Shown one piece after another: positions 12,724 to 61,689 of a stretch of 64,000 nucleotides of DNA. The DNA is taken from positions 2,170,001 to 2,234,000 of the forward strand of contig NZ_FQWQ01000001.1 of assembly GCF_900129725.1 (NCBI RefSeq), read 5' to 3'. Made by a program: the position numbers and the translations under genes. The notes under the pieces were generated by a model. That model was not told the DNA's origin. It saw only the letters and a program-made list of their open reading frames with translations, and ran no database searches. Each line of letters begins with the position of its first letter. The stretch's first letter is position 1. This DNA comes from Chryseolinea serpens. Lineage in GTDB: Bacteria > Bacteroidota > Bacteroidia > Cytophagales > Cyclobacteriaceae.

Positions 12724-12776
12724 AACCTACCGGCTTTCATAGACGTATACCTGCGCACCATGCCTCTTATACGTCT

Positions 12777-46061: not shown

Positions 46062-46690
46062 CGGTTGAGTTTCCCTTCAAGAAAATAAGCCCAGCGAAGA
46101 GGGGCCTTCAGATTTTTCGTTACATGATTTCGAGTCGTTAGCGGCATATTCCATTCTCCGTATGAAACAACGTTGAAAACTAGTTAACCCAATTTTGGAC
46201 AAATTGTCCAGACCAATTTGATTATCGACTGTGAATGTTCAGGATTTCTCAGTCAATTTAAGAAGGTAAGACCACCTGAAAACATAATGTCATTCCGCGC
46301 CATTGGGCTTTACAGTAGTTTTCGTTAGGATTTTTTGGAAATGACAGGAGTCATTTGATAATTTTAGAGTAGATGCAGCTGCAATAGCTCCATAGCGCTT
46401 TTAGAATAAAGCTTTTGATTCATGAAATCACGATTTTTAGCTCAGATGACCATAGAGGAATTCAAAATTCTTTTGAGAGAAATTTTGAAGGAAGTATTGG
46501 ATGAAGAAAAACGAACTGGTCTGGATACCGATAGCTTATTAAACACTCGGGAGGCTGCCCTTCTGTTGAATCTAGAGGTCACAACTTTATACGACAAAAC
46601 TTCTCAACGATTAATACCACATTATAAGCGCGGTAAAAAAGTATTGTTCAAAAAGTCCGAGTTGCTTGCATGGATTGAGGCAGGAAAAGT
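46062..46690 (+). repeat. Segmental duplication, copy 1
   Basis: About 630 bp nearly collinear with 48475-49080: both contain the same leader, the palindrome TGGACAAATTGTCCA (46196-46210; 48609-48623) and an HTH gene. Identity is high, with scattered small indels in the leader and one codon lost in the gene. Confidence 0.85.
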
Positions 46691-48474: not shown

Positions 48475-49080
48475 CGGTTGAGTCTCCCTTCATGAAAATA
48501 AGCCCATCGGAAAGCGCCCTCAGATCTTTCATTACGTGATTTTGAGTCGTGAGCGGCTTATTTCATTCTCCGCATGAAACAACGTTGGAAACTAGTTTAA
48601 CCCAATTTTGGACAAATTGTCCAAAGCAATTTGATTATCGACGTGATTGTTCAGGATTTTCTCAGTCAATTTAGGAAGGTCAGACCACTTGAAAAATAAC
48701 GTCATTCCGCGCCATTGGCTTTACGGTAGTTTTCGTTAGGATTTTTTGGATATGACCGGAGTCATTTGATAAGTTTAGAGTAGATGCAGCTGCAACAGCT
48801 CCATAGTGCTTTTAAAACAAAACTTTTGATTCATGAAATCACAATTATTAGGTCAGATGACCATAGAGGAATTCAAAATTCTTTTCAAAGAAACTTACAA
48901 TGAAGTATTGGAAGAAAAACGAACTGGTCTGAATACCGACAGCTTATTAAACACTCGGGAGGCTGCCCTTCTGTTGAATCTAGAGGTCGCAACTTTATAC
49001 GACAAAACTTCTCAACGGTTAATACCACATTATAAGCGCGGCAAAAAAGTATTGTTCAAAAAGTCCGAGTTGCTTGCATG
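48475..49080 (+). repeat. Segmental duplication, copy 2
   Basis: Second copy of 46062-46690. Its right limit coincides with the left end of the 210-bp element at 49079. Confidence 0.85.
48833..49080 (+). pseudogene. Second HTH (excisionase-type) gene, truncated by element insertion
   Basis: Codes for the same protein as 46422 through KKSELLA, then runs into the inserted 210-bp element (CGESEVADHL is element sequence) and stays open until 49366. About 25 native C-terminal residues are lost, and the long tail is not a real domain. Confidence 0.75.
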
Positions 49081-52402: not shown

Positions 52403-52611
52403 TGTGGAGATTCCGAGTTGGTTGACCACTTCATTTCGTGAGGGTGTGATCACCGTAAGTTAAGCATGGATTCAATGGTGTTGGGACGTAACTTCAAGAT
52501 AGTCAATACGAGGTGTGGTCAATCCCTCGTGGAATAAATTATTCGATGGTCCGGAAAGTTGTGGTCACAGGAGTACGAAACCTAGTGGTCAACCACCTCG
52601 GAATCTCCACA
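52403..52611 (+). mobile_element. 210-bp MITE-like element (reference copy)
   Basis: 209 bp with terminal inverted repeats TGTGGAGATTCCGAGTTGGT and CACCTCGGAATCTCCACA, internal TTTCGTGAGGGTGTGATCACC and several TGACCA/TGGTCA boxes. A second right end (CCCGGAATCTCCA, to 52652) follows directly, suggesting nested or aborted insertions. Confidence 0.85.
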
Positions 52612-53100: not shown

Positions 53101-53166
53101 TTGACTTTAATCAATGTTCTAATTGATTATTTTCAATCTCAATTAGTCAAAGACGGCCTAAATTTG
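53101..53166 (+). promoter_or_regulatory. Dual FNR-like boxes and -7 element of the 53197 gene
   Basis: Box TTGACTTTAATCAA (53101-53114, centre 53107.5), second box TTGATTATTTTCAA (53123-53136, centre 53129.5) and TAAATTTG (53159-53166). Centres are 51.5 and 29.5 bp from the first base of the -7 element, identical to the promoters at 56640-56735 and 58272-58337. Confidence 0.8.
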
Positions 53167-53196
53167 CATTCAATTTATACTAAATCGAGGTTTTTT

Positions 53197-53460
53197 ATGG
53201 ACACCTTTTGTGATCAAGTGATAACTGCGATCAAGGCTGCAGAAAACGAGGGTGAATTAATAAAAGTTATTAGCTATTCTATGTCACGGCTCCGGCTGGT
53301 GAAAAATTCCAATCATGAATTCAGTTACATCATAAGCATAATTCTCTCACTTCGAAACACTGACTTAACAAATCTTTCTTTGCAAACCCGCCACAACATT
53401 AAGCTTGCAATTGCTATTTTCGGGCAATTCCAGAAGGAAAAATCGGAACACATTTCCTGA
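53197..53460 (+). CDS. Small helical protein (family member C)
   Basis: 87 aa from ATG 53197 (MDTFCDQVITAIKAAENEGEL). The longer frame starting with TTG at 53101 is rejected because it runs through the two operator boxes and the -7 element. It is predicted all-helical and aligns with the proteins at 56349 and 54705: an IKAA.NE.ELIKVIS block, a basic patch SRLRL, and the end IKLAIAIFGQFQKE. The family is not recognised. The promoter is under the FNR-like boxes at 53101-53136. Confidence 0.75.
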   Translation: MDTFCDQVITAIKAAENEGELIKVISYSMSRLRLVKNSNHEFSYIISIILSLRNTDLTNLSLQTRHNIKLAIAIFGQFQKEKSEHIS

Positions 53461-53475
53461 TCAATTACCGCATCA

Positions 53476-53587
53476 ATGCGGCATTTCGGACATACTGTTT
53501 CTCCGCAAGATCAAATCGGCTTCGGACGAGAAAGAGATGGAAAATGTCATTGAGCGTTCGATTCAACGTCTGAAATTAAAAACGTAA
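53476..53587 (+). pseudogene. Broken copy of the small helical protein gene
   Basis: DNA similar to the start of the gene at 54705 (opposite strand), with an extra base that shifts the frame; only the middle is readable as KIKSASDEKEMENVIERSIQ before a stop. It lies 15 bases after the intact gene at 53197. Confidence 0.7.
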
Positions 53588-53765
53588 ATAGCCATCTATT
53601 TAACCTTGTTCTTATCATTTTTCTGGACAGGATGATTTGAAAAAAATACTGCTTCTATATATAGCTTTGCTACTAGCAGCTCCAGTTGAAATGCTTTTAT
53701 TCATCGGCCGTCTTCTTTGCCTTCTCCCTACCGGCGAGATCTCTACAAATAGACTGTATCAAATA

Positions 53766-54629
53766 TTATCCAAGGTACTGTTTTAATGCCTTGCTCCTTG
53801 AAGTTTGCCGGAGTCTGCGGATACCTTTTTCCTTTATTTGTCTTACACGTTCACGGGTAAGGTTGAACATGTCTGCAATCTCCTCAAGGGTCACGGCTGG
53901 CCGACCATTGAGGCCATAATAAAGCGATATGACATCGGATTCCCTTTGAGTCAACGTGGCAAGGGAACGTTGCACATCCTGCTGTAACGAATTACTGATC
54001 AGCGTTGAATCCGGTGTCTCCTCCGAATCATTCTCCAATATGTCAAGCAGACCGTTCTCCTCTCCCTGTACGAAGGGGGCGTTGATAGAAGCTTGCCGGG
54101 TTCCCATTTGCACGGTATCCCTGACTTCTTCCGGTGCGATCTCCAGAACCTCGGCAAGTTCCTCAGCGGAAGGGTCGCGTTGGAATTTTTGCTCCAGCGC
54201 GGAAAATGTCCTGTTGAGTTTGTTCAGAGAACCAATCCTGTTCATAGGAATCCGGACAACCCTGGACTGTTCGGCAACGGCCTGCATGACCGATTGCCGG
54301 ATCCACCATACTGCGTAGGAAATGAATTTGAAGCCCCGCGTTTCGTCAAAGCGCATGGCGGCTTTCACTAACCCGATATTGCCTTCGTTGATCAGATCCC
54401 CTAAAGACAAGCCGAGATTTTGATATTGCTTGGCTACGGAGACTACAAATCTGAGGTTGGCTTTTACCATCTTTTCAAGGGCGGCCTGGTCACCTGCTTT
54501 GATACGCTGAGTCAGTTTCACCTCCTCGTCGGCCGTAATAAGGTCAACTCTCCCGATCTCTTGTAAATACTTATCCAACGATTGGGTTTCGCGGTTAGTG
54601 ATCTGCTTCGTGATTTTAAGTTGCCTCAT
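53766..54629 (-). CDS. RpoD/SigA-like sigma-70 factor (probably alternative copy)
   Basis: 287 aa, the length of Bacteroidota primary sigma factors. Regions: 1.2 [20 protein letters not shown], 2 [15 protein letters not shown] to [19 protein letters not shown], 3 [20 protein letters not shown], 4.2 [20 protein letters not shown]. It keeps all DNA-contact residues. Its place after an FNR-like promoter, an oxoamine synthase gene and a helical-protein gene argues for a second, condition-specific copy rather than the housekeeping one, but the rest of the genome is needed to decide. Confidence 0.9.
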
Positions 54630-54704
54630 GGTTCTTTCTCCGAGTTTTTGGAATAAACACTATAACCGCTTGAATAATTCGGCCCTTCTCTTTGTAGGCG
54701 CTTC

Positions 54705-54953
54705 TTATGGTCTTTGAAGTTTCCGGAACATACCGATGGCGATGTCCATATTCTGTTCCGCTTTTTCGGAAGTATCCTCCAACCTGGCTTGATCGAGGGT
54801 CTTATCCATGGCCTGGATGAATCGCTGAATGATATGGCCATTGATGTTCTTGGACTTCAGCCGCTGGATCGAATGGCGAATGATATTTTCGATCTCTTTC
54901 TCGTCCGAAGCCGACTTGATCTGGCTGAGAACGGTTTGTCTGAAATGCAGCAT
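54705..54953 (-). CDS. Small helical protein (family member B)
   Basis: 82 aa, highly charged, all-helical: SASDEKEIENIIRHSIQRLK near the N-terminus and EKAEQNMDIAIGMFRKLQ at the end. It aligns with the proteins at 53197 and 56349. It lies between the oxoamine synthase (22 bp upstream) and the sigma gene (75 bp downstream) in the same operon. An anti- or co-sigma role is conceivable from position alone. Confidence 0.75.
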   Translation of the reverse strand: MLHFRQTVLSQIKSASDEKEIENIIRHSIQRLKSKNINGHIIQRFIQAMDKTLDQARLEDTSEKAEQNMDIAIGMFRKLQRP

Positions 54954-54975
54954 AGGGTCTTCGGTGAATAAAGTA

Positions 54976-56232
54976 TTAAGCCATTTTGGTTACCGATACC
55001 AGTTCCTCTTTGCGATAGAAACCACTGTCTAACTTCGCCTTTAGCTCATTGAATGCGGTCAGGGTTTCATCTACATCGGATAGCGTATGGGAAGCCGTTG
55101 GAATAATTCTGAACATAATAACACCCTTGGGCACAACAGGATAAATTACTACCGAGCAGAATATCCCATAATTCTCTCGCAGATCCATGGCCATGTTGGC
55201 AGCCTCGCCCACACCGCCCTTAAAGAGCACGGGTGTGGGTGGGGTCTGTGAATCACCGACGTTAAAACCATTTTCTTTCAGACCCGATTTAATGGCTTTC
55301 ATGATCTTTTTAAGGTTAGCCCGCAGCTCCGGCTTTGTCCTGAGAAGTTCCAGGCGCTTCAGCGTGCCGATGACCATTGGAAGGGGTAAACTCTTGGCAT
55401 AGATCTGTGACCGCACGGTGTAGCGAAGGTACTTGAGCACGCTCTTATCGCCCGCGACGAAGGCACCTATGCCGGCCATCGATTTTGCAAAGGTCGCGAA
55501 GTACAAATCGATCGTGGGTTGAACGCCTTGCTCTTCACCAACACCGGCACCGGTGGCGCCCATGGTTCCAAACCCATGCGCGTCATCCACCATAAGCCTG
55601 AAATTATATTTCTTTTTCATCTCAACTATCCCTTTCAGGTCGCCCATCTGGCCGGACATTCCGAAAACACCCTCTGTTATAACCAGGATTCCCCCACCGG
55701 TCTCATTGGCTAACTTGGTTGCACGCTGCAATTGTTTTTCCAGACCTCCCATATCATTGTGGGGAAAAACGAAACGTTTGCCCATGTGCAAGCGGACGCC
55801 ATCAATGATACAGGCATGAGATTCCGCGTCGTACACGATGACATCCTTGCGGTCGACCAGCGCGTCAATAATGGAAAAAACACCCTGATATCCATAGTTG
55901 AGAAGCATAGCGTCTTCTTTCATGACAAATCCGGCCAACTGCCTTTCCAACTCCAGGTGATGGACTGAATTTCCGGACATCATTCGGGCGCCCATTGGCG
56001 AAGCCAAACCATATTTAATGGACGCCTCAGCATCGGCCTGCCTTACTTCGGGGTGATTGGCCAATCCTAAATAATTGTTGAGGCTCCAGTTGAGTACCTC
56101 TTTTCCGTTGAACCACATCCGGGGCCCAATGTCCCCTTCCAGTTTGGGAAAGAAAAAATAGTCTTCGGGTAAATGGGCATACTTGGCGAGCGGCCCCGTT
56201 TCCATCTGTAGTTTTTCAAATAAATCTTTCAT
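54976..56232 (-). CDS. PLP-dependent alpha-oxoamine synthase (serine/cysteate palmitoyltransferase-like)
   Basis: 418 aa fold-type I PLP enzyme. Motifs: NNYLGLANHPEVRQADAEA, PMGARMMSGNSVHHLELE, DAESHACIIDG (His stacking on PLP), VDDAHGFGTMGATGAGVGEE, and the PLP lysine in FATFAKSMAGIGAF. This is the Bacteroidota group that condenses an amino acid (serine, glycine or cysteate) with an acyl thioester to begin sphingolipid or sulfonolipid synthesis, related to KBL and BioF. Exact substrates cannot be told. It is co-directional with genes at 56349, 54705 and 53766. Confidence 0.88.
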   Translation of the reverse strand: MKDLFEKLQMETGPLAKYAHLPEDYFFFPKLEGDIGPRMWFNGKEVLNWSLNNYLGLANHPEVRQADAEASIKYGLASPMGARMMSGNSVHHLELERQLAGFVMKEDAMLLNYGYQGVFSIIDALVDRKDVIVYDAESHACIIDGVRLHMGKRFVFPHNDMGGLEKQLQRATKLANETGGGILVITEGVFGMSGQMGDLKGIVEMKKKYNFRLMVDDAHGFGTMGATGAGVGEEQGVQPTIDLYFATFAKSMAGIGAFVAGDKSVLKYLRYTVRSQIYAKSLPLPMVIGTLKRLELLRTKPELRANLKKIMKAIKSGLKENGFNVGDSQTPPTPVLFKGGVGEAANMAMDLRENYGIFCSVVIYPVVPKGVIMFRIIPTASHTLSDVDETLTAFNELKAKLDSGFYRKEELVSVTKMA

Positions 56233-56348
56233 TCACTCTGTCGTATTAAAAATTATGCTCACGGGGGCAAATAATAGATGGCAGAACCGTATCGATCGAT
56301 CGAGCTAGCTTAGGCCCTAAAAGGAATTTGAATTGACTCTTGCATTGA

Positions 56349-56612
56349 TCAGCAAATGCGCTCCCGGTTTTCCTTCTGGATTTCTCTGAAAATGGCAATA
56401 GCAAGTTTGAGGTTGTTCTGTATTTCTGACGACAAGCCAGAGGCTTCCGTTGTCCCGAGGGAAACAATCATATTCATAATGTAACCGGTTTCGTTATAGG
56501 AATTCCGGTCTATCCGGAGCTGGGACATTGAATGACTAATCACCTTGATCAGTTCAGTTTCGTTTCTGGCTGCTTTAATCTCCGCGACAATTTCGTTGCA
56601 AAAAGCTTCCAT
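56349..56612 (-). CDS. Small helical protein (family member A)
   Basis: 87 aa from ATG 56612 (MEAFCNEIVAEIKAARNETEL). The frame is open up to 56705 but that part covers the operators and the -7 element. Aligned start and length agree with the gene at 53197, including the FC near residue 4-5. It is first in a probable minus-strand operon followed by the oxoamine synthase, family member B and the sigma factor. Family function unknown. Confidence 0.75.
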   Translation of the reverse strand: MEAFCNEIVAEIKAARNETELIKVISHSMSQLRIDRNSYNETGYIMNMIVSLGTTEASGLSSEIQNNLKLAIAIFREIQKENRERIC

Positions 56613-56639
56613 AAATGCATTTTCTCTAATATATCGACT

Positions 56640-56735
56640 GCAATTTATGCCGCATTTCCTTATTTTATGTTGAACATAGTCAACCATTCCATTGACTTTA
56701 GTCAATGAGAATATTGATATATTGGAATAAATTGC
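56640..56735. promoter_or_regulatory. Divergent promoter with shared dual FNR-like boxes
   Basis: Boxes TTGAACATAGTCAA (56670-56683, centre 56676.5) and TTGACTTTAGTCAA (56692-56705, centre 56698.5). Minus-strand -7 TAAATTGC begins at 56647; plus-strand -7 TAAATTGC begins at 56728. Each -7 is 29.5 bp from the nearer centre and 51.5 bp from the farther one, so one box pair can serve both directions. Confidence 0.85.
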
Positions 56736-56752
56736 CGCAAGACCAGCGAACC

Positions 56753-57475
56753 ATGCTTAGAAACTTTTTGTCCGAGAACTTCCGGCTCAAAACAGACCAA
56801 CTCTTTGAAGTCCTGACTGTAGAAGAACAGGACTCATTAATGGGATCTGGGGTCACGCATGAATACAAGAAAGGGGAGATCATTTTCCGTGAAGGGGGCA
56901 TTCCAACCGGAATATTTTACATCAAGGCCGGAAGGGTGAAAAAATACAAGACCAACCCAAAAGGGAATGAACACATATTCTACCTCTGTAGCCAAGGAGA
57001 ACTTCTCGGCTACCATGCTTTGCTGGGTGAAGAGTACTACATGGACTCGGCGGCTACTATCGAAATTTCGCTGATCACCTTTATCCCAAAAGATGGTTTT
57101 TTGAAGGTCCTTCGAAGCTCCACAACCTTTTCCAACGCGCTGTTAAAAGCACTGGGCCATGAGTTCAGTTTTTTCGCCAATAGCATCTCCAACCTGGCCA
57201 CGAAGTCCGTGAAGGAACGCCTGGCATTTAATCTTCTAATCCTGGATGAAAAGTTCAAAAATAAGGACCTACCCCATGAAGGGAACGAGATCATTCTCTC
57301 CCGAACCGATCTGACCAATATGGTTGGGACGGCCAAAGAGACACTCGTAAGGCTTTTGCAGGAATTTATGCGTGCGGGGCTCATTGAGAAAACGGACAAG
57401 ACTATTCGCATCCTTGACCGGAAAGCACTGGTGAAGGAAGCCAATTTGATGGGATCAAATACAAAGAAACTCTGA
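56753..57475 (+). CDS. CRP/FNR-family regulator without iron-sulfur cysteines
   Basis: 240 aa from ATG 56753. An ATG at 56705 is rejected because it lies in the operator, upstream of the -7 element. The N-terminal cyclic-nucleotide-binding-like domain has KKGEIIFREGGIPTGIFYIKAGRVK and the C-terminal winged helix has LTNMVGTAKETLVRLLQEF. In the recognition helix the E-T-L-V-R pattern resembles FNR rather than CRP and fits TTGAT-type boxes. Only one Cys is present (FYLCSQGE), so a classical 4Fe-4S oxygen sensor is excluded. It probably activates its own promoter and those of the cluster. Confidence 0.9.
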   Translation: MLRNFLSENFRLKTDQLFEVLTVEEQDSLMGSGVTHEYKKGEIIFREGGIPTGIFYIKAGRVKKYKTNPKGNEHIFYLCSQGELLGYHALLGEEYYMDSAATIEISLITFIPKDGFLKVLRSSTTFSNALLKALGHEFSFFANSISNLATKSVKERLAFNLLILDEKFKNKDLPHEGNEIILSRTDLTNMVGTAKETLVRLLQEFMRAGLIEKTDKTIRILDRKALVKEANLMGSNTKKL

Positions 57476-57487
57476 GCGCCGTCGCTA

Positions 57488-57616
57488 TCAAAAGACTTGC
57501 AGTACGGTCAGGATCAGGTAAACAAGGATCATCATCAGTAATACACCGTACAAGATGAGGTCCACGCGGATGTAATCCCGGTATTGACGGAATAGGTTCT
57601 TCATTTTTTTGAACAT
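57488..57616 (-). CDS. 42-residue membrane peptide in the methyltransferase operon
   Basis: ATG-to-TGA frame, 33 bp after the methyltransferase stop and on the same strand. The N-terminus is basic and hydrophilic (MFKKMKNLFRQYRDYIRVD), followed by one long hydrophobic helix (YGVLLMMILVYLILTVL) to the end. This is the form of small bitopic inner-membrane proteins that attach to larger complexes. No family recognised. It ends 12 bases from the convergent FNR-like gene. Confidence 0.6.
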   Translation of the reverse strand: MFKKMKNLFRQYRDYIRVDLILYGVLLMMILVYLILTVLQVF

Positions 57617-57649
57617 CTGGCTTAGTTGTCTTTTTGTTTAGTATGATGG

Positions 57650-58246
57650 TCAGAATATTTTCTCCCAAAGGTGCAAGGCACCGTTGTAAAGATCATCCAC
57701 CAACCTGAAGCTTTGAGGAACAATCGAGAAGGGGCTATGGTAAGTGGCCAGTCTCACCCCCAGCGGAAGACCGGCAAGCTGTTCAACAGTGTGCATGGAA
57801 TAGGTATCATAGAGCCGGGGATCAAGTTGGACCCGGTCGTCGATCCTATTGGCAAGGTCAACATTTTCAAAGAACGGATTAAAGAAATAGAATGCGTTGA
57901 AGTCCCTGAAATCAACGGAAGTGATGTTGGCATGGATGTATCTGGTATTGGTGATGTCATAGGAGGAGCAAAGTTTTCGGGATAATTCTACCAAATCCGA
58001 CCGTTGCTCGACGCCCGTAAATTGGCCCTTGGTGCTGGCAGCGCCTACCATACAAAATTTACCGGCTCCTGAGCCAATATCCAATACCCTTGAACCCGGC
58101 ATTCCGGCCAGGAACTCGGATGCGGTTTTGGCAACAGAAACCGGTGTCCAATGTTTCGGGGACAAACTGCTGATATTCTGGGGATAGATTGCGTTAAAAT
58201 CTTCGTCGGTTATATCAATATTTAAACGAATGAATTCGAAGATCAT
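57650..58246 (-). CDS. Class I SAM-dependent methyltransferase
   Basis: 198 aa. Rossmann fold with motif I VLDIGSGAGKFC (near residues 54-65), an acidic residue after strand 2 (FTGVEQRSDL), and NAFYFFNPFFEN at the position of the usual NPP/DPP-type motif IV. The substrate is unknown; the small size and N-terminal ITDEDFNAIYP phrase do not match rRNA enzymes that I recognise. The start at 58246 is 25 bases after a -7 element (TAGCTTTG) and dual FNR-like boxes. A membrane peptide follows in the operon. Confidence 0.85.
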   Translation of the reverse strand: MIFEFIRLNIDITDEDFNAIYPQNISSLSPKHWTPVSVAKTASEFLAGMPGSRVLDIGSGAGKFCMVGAASTKGQFTGVEQRSDLVELSRKLCSSYDITNTRYIHANITSVDFRDFNAFYFFNPFFENVDLANRIDDRVQLDPRLYDTYSMHTVEQLAGLPLGVRLATYHSPFSIVPQSFRLVDDLYNGALHLWEKIF

Positions 58247-58271
58247 GTGACGGCTGCTTATTGAAAGTAAT

Positions 58272-58337
58272 CAAAGCTAGGACTGATCCGTGATTTGTCC
58301 CTTGATACATCTCAATTTGCGCATTGATCAAAATCAA
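58272..58337 (-). promoter_or_regulatory. Dual FNR-like boxes and -7 element of the methyltransferase operon
   Basis: TTGATCAAAATCAA (58324-58337, centre 58330.5; perfect FNR consensus), TTGATACATCTCAA (58302-58315, centre 58308.5) and TAGCTTTG on the minus strand starting at 58279. Distances to the -7 element are 51.5 and 29.5 bp. Confidence 0.85.
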
Positions 58338-58618
58338 TCATCATCCTTGAAGATAACGAAAATGAACCTCATGCCGAACACGGAGGAAGGCCTGATACTT
58401 TTAATGCCTGGAGTGCCCTGAAGATTGGAAACAAGCGGATAGGTAATTAGATCCTCAATGATTTTGGAGTTGCCTCCCAACTCCGTGTAGATGAGCGCCT
58501 GGTTTTTGGAACGATCTGGAAGTTTTGACATTCCAATTTTACGGCCACAACAGAGATTTTTTTTTACAGTGAACAATCTACTATTCAAATCACAATGGCG
58601 ACTTACCTGGTCAAGCAA
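58334..58618 (-). pseudogene. Fragment of a CusA/CzcA-type RND metal pump
   Basis: The frame contains the N-terminal periplasmic phrase of heavy-metal RND pumps: SKLPDRSKNQALIYTELGG, then IIEDLITYPLVSNLQGTPG and SVFGMRFIFVIFKDD. Only about 70 codons survive, out of about 1000. The homologous part ends right beside the FNR-like box, showing that the regulatory locus abuts decayed sequence here. Confidence 0.7.
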
Positions 58619-59968: not shown

Positions 59969-60178
59969 TGGAAATTCCGACCCGCTTGACGACTTTATTC
60001 CGTAAGGGCGTGATCACCATTAGTTAGCAATCGTAAAACTAACTGTTGTTAGAACATAACTTCAAGGTGTTCAAGGCCAATGGATGGTCAATTCCTCGAG
60101 GGATGAATTATACGGTAGTACGGAATGTAGTGGTCACAGGCACACGAAATAAAGTGGTCAACCAACTCGGAATCTCCA
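59969..60178 (+). mobile_element. 210-bp MITE-like element
   Basis: 210 bp, same orientation and internal landmarks as 52403-52611 (GTAAGGGCGTGATCACC, ACATAACTTCAAGG, GTAGTGGTCACAGG), ends TGGAAATTCCGA and ACTCGGAATCTCCA. Confidence 0.8.
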
Positions 60179-61156: not shown

Positions 61157-61366
61157 GTGGAGATTCCGAGGTGGTTGACCACTTTGTTTCGTACGCCAGT
61201 GACCACAACATTCCGGACCATCAAACAATTTATTCCGCGAGGAACTGACCATCTTTTGCATTGACTATCTTGAAGTTATGTCCCAACACGACTGAACCTA
61301 TGCTTACTTAACTTATGGTGATCATACCGTCACGAAATCAAGTGGTCAAGGGGGTCGGAATCTCCA
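61157..61366 (-). mobile_element. 210-bp MITE-like element, inverted
   Basis: 210 bp; the reverse complement lines up along its length with 52403-52611. Ends GTGGAGATTCCGAGGTGGT and GGGGGTCGGAATCTCCAC. Confidence 0.85.
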
Positions 61367-61689
61367 CTTCACATCTCTTCACTTTAGTTCACGTTTTGCT
61401 GGGCAAATGCGGGGCTCCGTGTAATTTTTGTTGACAGCGGGGCAAATTTTACTTATAAAATATCAACCTGGAAGCCGCATTAACAGACGTTTACAGTTAC
61501 CGTTGTTCTTGACCTAAGAAAGCCCCTTAAAGCTGGTAAATAACCCATAAGCTTAGGGTAGGAAAAGGAAGAACGATAACCGAAAGTATTTCCATTTTAG
61601 GTCGAGGCGAACCTGAAGAGAGATGAAGAGATTATTGAATTACTACCGAGCCTCGAATTTGCTTGCCTTTAAAGAAAGATTTGCTTCAA
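61367..61689. other. Gene-free stretch
   Basis: No coding region or clear signal found; stops in all frames. Confidence 0.4.

Follow-up and report, generated by a model that had tools for sequence, protein, structure and literature searches.

The window (the whole stretch of Chryseolinea serpens DNA that was analysed, 64,000 nt) contains a gene for a Crp/Fnr-family regulator of 240 aa with a single cysteine (56753..57475, + strand) and, divergent from it, a gene for an 87-aa small protein with four predicted helices (copy 2; 56349..56612, − strand). On the strand of copy 2 lie genes for a BioF/Kbl/serine palmitoyltransferase-like PLP enzyme (54976..56232, −), a distant small-protein paralogue of 82 aa (54705..54953, −) and a 287-aa sigma factor of the primary (sigma-A) type, which occurs in the module loci (53766..54629, −). 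Copy 1 of the 87-aa gene, 52% identical to copy 2, is found at 53197..53460 (+) together with a fragment resembling the 82-aa gene (53476..53595, +; an inverted partial duplicate of 54834–54953, 80%), and a SAM methyltransferase-like gene (Methyltransf_31/25) at 57650..58246 (−). The PLP-enzyme gene is present also on contig 11 of C. lacunae and was not seen in the fetched stretches of the remaining module loci; in a fold search the 87-aa protein matched nothing significantly (best E 0.92).

Three pairs of FNR-type boxes, each with a centre spacing of 22 bp, accompany these genes, and both their sequence and their coordinates in the first-pass annotation were verified to the base. The first pair precedes the first 87-aa gene (53101–53114 and 53123–53136, i.e. 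53101..53136, + strand; centres 53107.5 and 53129.5, predicted to lie at −63.5 and −41.5), with the −7 element TAAATTTG at 53159–53166 (+). The central pair (56670–56683 and 56692–56705, i.e. 56670..56705; centres 56676.5 and 56698.5) is common to two divergent promoters, with the −7 element TAAATTGC at 56640–56647 (−) for small-protein copy 2 and the same element at 56728–56735 (+) for the regulator; the claim that −7 elements flank this pair on either side thus holds. The last pair belongs to the methyltransferase gene (58302–58315 and 58324–58337, i.e. 58302..58337, − strand; centres 58308.5 and 58330.5), whose −7 element is TAGCTTTG at 58272–58279 (−). All four −7 elements start at exactly the distances described before, 29.5 bp from the near and 51.5 bp from the far centre, and the 53101 and 58302 pairs have an in-register −7 box on one side only. 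The consensus TAnnTTTG that had been proposed for all four fits two of them; the two TAAATTGC elements read TAnnTTGC and fit TAnnTTGY (SM5) better. An extra one-mismatch box (58261–58274) is centred on the predicted methyltransferase start, and a third half-site, TTGAT (56714..56718, +), lies 8 bp past the regulator-proximal box.

With up to two mismatches at a gap of 8, the three reported pairs are the only ones in the window, and gap-8 pairs with one mismatch or none were absent from 60 block-shuffled windows. Single boxes (up to two mismatches) number 132 in the window versus 107 expected by chance, and the exceptional feature is the pairing and register, not the single boxes. In the whole 8.36-Mb genome the pair pattern with up to three mismatches occurs at 13 places versus 3 in the reversed control; at most one mismatch is found for the three window pairs only, all of them inside 5.2 kb and no more than 3.7 kb from the regulator gene, and a two-mismatch pair is located elsewhere, at C8:478467. 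A one-box search of the same genome (up to two mismatches) returned 27 matches versus 13 in the reversed control, so most of the two-mismatch matches among them may be due to chance. Since the 53101 locus partly duplicates the operon that the 56670 pair precedes, these two promoters are not fully independent.

The regulator has a cNMP-binding domain (PF00027, 1.8e-17) and a Crp-type HTH (PF13545, 7.9e-13), which place it in the Crp/Fnr superfamily by sequence. FNR proper holds a [4Fe-4S] cluster with four cysteines. The sole cysteine of the regulator, C79, is invariant across five aligned sequences, and the NCBIfam FNR model scores 77 bits against a cut-off of 228; the single cysteine and the sub-cut-off score set it apart from FNR proper, the oxygen-sensing Fe-S protein. 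No hcp, nir, nor or related gene names were found among the few neighbours scanned.

The 22-bp pair is kept at all six close-clade regulator loci found (5/5 without the window; five genomes, one of them a Chitinophaga MAG) and also at one methyltransferase promoter of C. lacunae, so that boxes and spacing are conserved beside homologues, the check that the first-pass annotation had put forward. Among box pairs in the module, TTGA-N6-TCAA is found in 9/9 (one arm base changed in two) and the spacing is 22 bp in 9/9. Across module loci the 8-bp spacers are 25–30% identical versus 71–93% for the boxes, and the linkers, like the spacers, have diverged while the box pair stays, i.e. the 22-bp spacing is conserved within diverged DNA. 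The six regulator loci share one ancestor, and the shuffle tests keep this shared ancestry in. For more distant regulator homologues (39–47% identity), the pair is absent from the 400 bp preceding the match in all 26 that were fetched; autoregulatory use therefore looks like a trait of one clade, and the result argues against every Crp/Fnr homologue autoregulating via a tandem pair.

The third half-site, which the first-pass annotation did not mention, continues the same 22-bp phase and is found as an exact TTGAY at five of the six regulator promoters (CTGAT at the sixth). It was not reproduced in any of 20000 shuffles, its columns are 87% identical versus 37% for the remaining linker, and it was seen at none of the 29 tandem promoters of other genes. 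A full box at this place would be centred at about −19.5 for the regulator and about −85.5 for the divergent gene. Judging from its position, the site may perhaps serve autorepression of the regulator; it is a half-site only, and with its position at about −85.5 relative to the divergent gene its role could lie at that promoter and not at the regulator's own.

Scored across 15 gene-facing promoters, the −7 element has its maximum 29.5 bp away from the near centre, with a mean of 4.67 of 6 (2.6 at the next best offset), and none of 5000 shuffles, covering 62 offsets, reached this peak. In the start-site map of F. psychrophilum the −7 box spans −12 to −5 (PMC9723704), and with this flavobacterial frame the operators would fall at about −41.5 (class II) and about −63.5, predicted positions whose frame is borrowed from another genus. 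The class II register claimed for the near box is thereby supported, and the second operator lies upstream in a fixed register, as in a tandem (class III) promoter. The −7 boxes are poor on several regulator sides (GAGATTGC, GAAAATTG and TTAAATTG).

The layout is found well beyond this locus. A scan of 390 Cytophagales genomes yielded 38 exact box pairs, 28 of them spaced 22 or 23 bp, and no pairs were found with the reversed control in the same genomes. An in-register −7 box (a score of 5 or more out of 6, displaced from 29.5 by no more than 1 bp, on one of the two sides) was present at 22 of the 24 fetched pairs with 22–23-bp spacing, the exceptions being L225 (score 4) and L229 (score 2); L087 has its −7 box in register yet no long reading frame behind it. 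Grouped by downstream gene, 10 of 11 groups, one of them a COX1 oxidase, have the −7 box in register, versus a mean of 0.65 and a maximum of 2 of 11 for control offsets (the test keeps the better of the two sides, and so does the control). Most order-level pairs with an in-register −7 box have it on one side only, with the spacing still 22–23 bp. A single-box TAnnTTTGC search of 98 family genomes gave 8 of 42 matches at the expected 22-bp gap and likewise 8 of 42 at a 13-bp gap (four of the latter being one nearly identical sequence), and is weak support for the 22-bp gap. The first-pass annotation had read the pairs as a local regulon run by the 56753 regulator: the pairs do cluster around the regulator gene, itself included, but the layout is not confined there, as 22–23-bp tandem boxes with an in-register −7 box are found at many unrelated Cytophagales genes. 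This recurrence suggests a common mode of activation in the group.

We consider it probable that these are activator-dependent Bacteroidota promoters with two adjoining FNR-type operators, a reading to which geometry, conservation, register, local clustering and order-wide recurrence all contribute; regulator binding, activation, co-operativity, autorepression and the start sites are predictions from sequence. In class II fashion, one dimer of the 56753 regulator would bind at about −41.5 and cover the position of the weak −33 contact; a second dimer would adjoin it at about −63.5 and lie on almost the same face of the helix (22 bp, 2.1 turns). The −7 box to which they would together bring RNA polymerase starts 29.5 bp away from the near centre. 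The central pair would drive the regulator as well as the divergent operon (small proteins, PLP enzyme and sigma-A paralogue), and the outer pairs the duplicate small-protein gene and the methyltransferase. Excess regulator might cover the −19.5 region via the third half-site and so damp its own promoter. The two-box layout at 22–23 bp would be a recurring Cytophagales type, run elsewhere by other Crp/Fnr proteins.

To our knowledge, little is known about activator action at Bacteroidota promoters, with their −7 box and hardly any −33. The fixed-register layout offers a sequence rule for Crp/Fnr targets and start-site prediction across Cytophagales. In E. coli the alpha C-terminal domain binds upstream of the class II site, where the second box lies here, and the layout raises the testable question of how RNA polymerase deals with a second activator occupying that place.

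A somewhat unlikely alternative gives the reading of the core promoters to the module sigma-A paralogue, which would prefer TAnnTTGY and have the regulator as its co-activator. The module sigma factor is 76% identical to the presumed canonical sigma-A of the same genome, and of the 13 core regulator/small-gene promoters, 5 have strict TAnnTTGY and the remaining 8 have TAnnTTGG, GAnATTG-like, TAnnTTTG or weaker elements. Where the sigma gene is unbroken, TAnnTTG with C, T or G as the next base is found in 7 of 11 core promoters (TAATTTGG among them is ambiguous), and the two core −7 boxes of G177, which has a split sigma frame, are TTTG-type. In F. psychrophilum, TAnnTTGY forms the SM5 box, ascribed by the authors of that study to an alternative sigma factor (PMC9723704). 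However, the gene is broken in one genome only, and the 53101 and methyltransferase promoters have TTTG although the sigma gene beside them is unbroken. Region 2.4 of the paralogue, within what we take to be its boundaries, is also almost identical to region 2.4 in the presumed canonical sigma-A, and this near invariance leaves a module sigma factor that differs in its −7-reading region unsupported. No second module copy was found in the 20 kb around an extra sigma gene at C10:2266547.

We doubt a broader speculation, in which the locus would be a self-contained, horizontally moving cassette with its own activator and sigma-A paralogue, switched on by two dimers two turns apart, with the third half-site capping the activator, TAnnTTGY reserving the core promoters, and the two-box part being a case of a wider Bacteroidota class (−41.5, −63.5/−64.5). 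A literature search for Bacteroidota promoters with activator sites at −41.5 and −63.5/−64.5 found no description.

It is also unlikely that the near box works alone (class II), with the far box belonging to the divergent transcript or being spare and the dimers not co-operating. In divergent pairs each box is indeed the near box for one promoter, and three single-box promoters of the same genome (L147, L148 and L149; exact box and −7 element, no second box) keep the same register; on the other hand, the 53101 and 58302 pairs and most order-level pairs with a −7 box are single-sided and still keep 22–23 bp. Less likely again is a repressor array, with dimers at −63.5 and −41.5 (plus the third half-site) blocking the neighbouring genes and the regulator itself until a signal arrives. 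There is overlap between the near box and the expected −33 region, the third half-site lies between box and −7 element in the regulator promoters, the box at 58261–58274 covers the predicted methyltransferase start, and some tandem FNR arrangements lower expression in E. coli (PMC11264516). Yet a fixed 29.5-bp offset is needless for a pure repressor, weak −7 boxes such as those on several regulator sides are a frequent trait of activated promoters, and 22/24 fetched order-level pairs, the COX1 oxidase included, have the near box in class II register. COX1-type oxidases are classic FNR-activated genes. Chance palindromes of AT-rich intergenic DNA can practically be dismissed: single TTGA-N6-TCAA matches are frequent, but genome-wide uniqueness of the pairs, conservation in diverged DNA, the shuffles (0/5000) and the 28/38 pairs at 22/23 bp all stand against them.

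The near box resembles that of E. coli class II FNR promoters (a TTGAT-N4-ATCAA-type palindrome at about −41.5); for E. coli FNR-activated promoters with a known start, 19 of 23 sites are at −41.5 within 4 nt (PMC3688515). Unlike those promoters, the ones described here have a −7 box in place of −10, a second box 22–23 bp upstream, and predicted starts. The HcpR1 motif is TTGAC-N4-GTCAA and the DNR motif TTGAT-N4-ATCAA-like, and in two cyanobacteria HcpR1/DNR/NnrR regulators are divergent from their target (PMC1274295, in the part available to us); a similar motif, the absence of the FNR cysteine motif and a divergent regulator are shared with our locus, which differs in its tandem sites with a Bacteroidota −7 and in its neighbours (small helical proteins, a PLP enzyme, a sigma factor and a methyltransferase). 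The nearest solved structure by sequence, PG0396 of P. gingivalis (PDB 2GAU), is likewise a Bacteroidota Crp/Fnr protein and binds its own promoter, but the box proposed for it is similar to the E. coli CRP box, and the available part of the source describes no tandem FNR-type architecture (PMC12040651). The SM5 promoters of F. psychrophilum share the TAnnTTGY match with TAAATTGC, TAACTTGC and TATCTTGT of the core promoters; they serve different genes, their sigma factor is not named in the available part of that paper, and the words FNR, CRP and TTGA are absent from its main text (PMC9723704). Repression from an upstream FNR site is possible in E. coli: the natural far site of yfiD at −93.5 lowers expression, strong repression by tandem FNR comes from far sites between −85 and −95, and melR constructs (Barnard 2003) remained inducible with a second site at many positions upstream (PMC11264516). 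Like yfiD and melR, our promoters have two FNR sites with the near one at about −41.5; unlike in these, the far site, at −63.5, directly adjoins the near one, the spacing is strict, and the arrangement recurs over many genes.

The window contains three pairs of TTGA-N6-TCAA boxes (53101-53136, 56670-56705 and 58302-58337), each with 22 bp between centres, and four -7 elements (the TAnnTTTG-type promoter motif of Bacteroidota), all beginning 29.5 bp from the near box centre, as described in the first-pass annotation. Across the 8.36 Mb genome, where the window spans bases 2170001-2234000 of contig 10, the pair pattern was found at 13 places with up to three mismatches, and the reversed pattern at 3. 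Those with at most one mismatch are identical to the three window pairs, and one other place has two mismatches. An extra FNR-type box with one mismatch is present at window 58261-58274, at a distance of 41 bp from the near box of the methyltransferase gene. It runs into the end of that gene's -7 element, and its centre coincides with the inferred start site; a dimer on this candidate box would repress. Three further loci of this genome (L147, L148 and L149, at C3:488110, C4:499531 and C7:994398) have one exact FNR box and no second box; a perfect TAnnTTTG stands at 29.5 bp, followed by a reading frame. They appear to form a separate one-box class II-like set.

The regulator encoded at window 56753-57475 (+) belongs to the Crp/Fnr family (PF00027, PF13545), and its closest solved relative by sequence is 2GAU, a P. 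gingivalis protein. It has one cysteine only and is therefore not an FNR-type Fe-S sensor. Divergent from it is the gene of an 87-aa protein, of which a second copy (52% identity) is found at window 53197; a distant paralogue of 82 aa is encoded at window 54705. The 87-aa protein is predicted by AlphaFold to form four helices (mean pLDDT 88); searches of Pfam and NCBIfam returned no family for it, and a PDB fold search no significant match. The operon further encodes a PLP-dependent acyltransferase-like enzyme and a primary-type sigma factor (six primary-type sigma genes or gene parts were found in the genome at E up to 1e-40), and the third pair lies upstream of a methyltransferase-like gene.

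Close-clade regulators are found in four of the 196 sampled genomes of the family, i.e. this genome and three others at 71-79% identity, one of which carries two copies. Within the genus, two out of six genomes have such a regulator. When named genomes were scanned, it was also found (74%) in a Chitinophaga MAG, which belongs to another order; from this patchy distribution we infer horizontal transfer, mis-binning of the MAG being possible. The 22-bp pair proposed for these promoters is conserved beside homologues, at all six close-clade regulator loci (five genomes) and also upstream of the C. lacunae methyltransferase homologue (62% identical). With the two further window pairs, the spacing is 22 bp in 9/9 module pairs, while identity is 25-30% in the spacers between boxes, 41-48% in the linkers and 71-93% in the boxes; the spacing is maintained where sequence is lost. 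For the 26 other fetched homologues (39-47% identity), the 400 bp preceding the match never contained a pair.

Of the 18 sides of the nine pairs, we scored the 15 directed towards a module gene (excluded were the reverse side of 53101, the forward side of 58302, and the forward side at 12755 of the fetched locus L073). Matches to TAnnTTTG average 4.67 out of 6 at 29.5 bp and 2.6 at the next best offset, and none of 5000 shuffles (in which common ancestry remains) reached that score at any of 62 offsets. Seven of the 15 promoters score at least 5, and several regulator-side -7 boxes are weak. In F. psychrophilum the -7 box is reported to occupy -12 to -5 (PMC9723704); with start sites taken from that other genus, the operators would be placed at about -41.5 and -63.5.

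A search of 390 Cytophagales genomes for exact TTGAY-N4-RTCAA pairs, allowing gaps from 0 to 30, gave 38 pairs in 38 genomes and none for the reversed pattern; C. serpens itself is absent because all of its pairs deviate from this stricter form at one position. Centre spacing is 22 bp in 8 and 23 bp in 20 of the 38. We fetched 24 of these 28 (G826, G872, G879 and G896 were left out), and in 22 of them one side has a -7 box that scores 5 or more out of 6 and lies no more than 1 bp away from the 29.5-bp position; the exceptions are L225 and L229. Since many pairs are orthologous, they were grouped by downstream gene, and the -7 box is present in 10 of 11 groups with one representative each (the SDR group was represented by L222; with L225, another member, it would have been negative). 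Scored identically, 81 other offsets yielded 0.65 groups on average and never more than 2 of 11. Ten representatives were searched against Pfam; the families named include COX1 (probably of the cbb3 type), DsbA/thioredoxin protein, PRISE reductase, SDR, F420_oxidored-type NADP oxidoreductase, a fatty-acid hydroxylase-reductase fusion, a saccharopine dehydrogenase-like protein and one DUF3103; two are without any Pfam family.

In a class sample of 395 genomes (Cytophagales members and the repeat-array genomes G462 and G506 excluded), 5 of 19 pairs have 22/23-bp spacing. Each of these five has, on one side, a -7 box at 29.5 bp that scores 5 or more out of 6, although in L087 no long reading frame follows. 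The reversed control matched once in each of two further genomes (G200 and G377). The arrays containing TTGAY-N4-RTCAA in G506 (C1; 22 bp apart at the places listed) and G462 (C104) look like repeat arrays, not promoters. According to the order and class pairs, therefore, the layout is widespread in Cytophagales; it probably reaches further, and most copies must be controlled by proteins that differ from the window regulator. The local regulon proposed earlier stands for the regulator's own pair and its neighbours, but the layout is not confined to it. Tandem-bound FNR is already known in E. coli (PMC11264516), so we treat the Cytophagales layout as a variant of it. Among the open-licence PMC papers listed, titles and abstract openings contained no description of tandem FNR-type boxes at Bacteroidota promoters, which is weak evidence of absence.

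The regulator promoters also carry TTGAY 8 bp after the near box (exact in five of six, CTGAT in the sixth), with 87% identity in these columns and 37% in the remaining linker. This third half-site is found in 0/29 tandem promoters of other genes, and visual inspection of the module alignment showed none in the nine other promoters. A dimer on the predicted third site would be centred at about -19.5 for the regulator and would block the promoter, from which we infer possible autorepression at high regulator level; the same half-site, about -85.5 from the divergent gene, may have a role there.

Where the sigma gene is unbroken, 7 of the 11 core promoters (those of the regulator and small genes) carry TAnnTTG plus a C, T or G, a motif shorter by one base than TAnnTTTG; five of the seven are strict TAnnTTGY. 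In F. psychrophilum, TAnnTTGY is the motif of the SM5 promoters, which the authors assign to an alternative sigma factor (PMC9723704). In Parachryseolinea silvisoli the module sigma gene is split into two frames (C7:491938-492797; this could be decay or an assembly error), and both core promoters have TTTG-type -7 boxes (TAACTTTG and GAAATTTG). Together these observations hint that the module sigma may read the shorter box; its region 2.4, hardly different from that of the presumed canonical sigma, counts against this reading, and the one genome is a single event.

This genome has another close relative of the module sigma, a second copy (C10:2266547-2267251; L204:10536-11522; 92% over 232 aa) that sits inside a longer open frame, and the adjoining kinase shares 80% identity with the kinase at window 51148; the surrounding 20 kb contains no box pair at up to two mismatches and no small-protein match. 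An inverted partial operon duplication (window 53393-53595 vs 54834-54953 and 56344-56416) holds the end of the 87-aa gene directly followed by a broken 82-aa fragment, the PLP gene missing between them; P. silvisoli has the same 87-aa/82-aa order, likewise without the PLP gene. A direct duplication of ~610 bp (46062-46672 and 48475-49080; 91%) holds the start of a small gene, which looks like a helix-turn-helix or excisionase protein. A dispersed repeat of ~210 bp (52404-52610, 59969-60178 and 61157-61367; 75-91% identity, both orientations) also occurs outside the window (L204:11478-11686). Directly behind the third pair, a fragment at 58337-58570 (-) matches the start of CusA/CzcA heavy-metal RND transporters.
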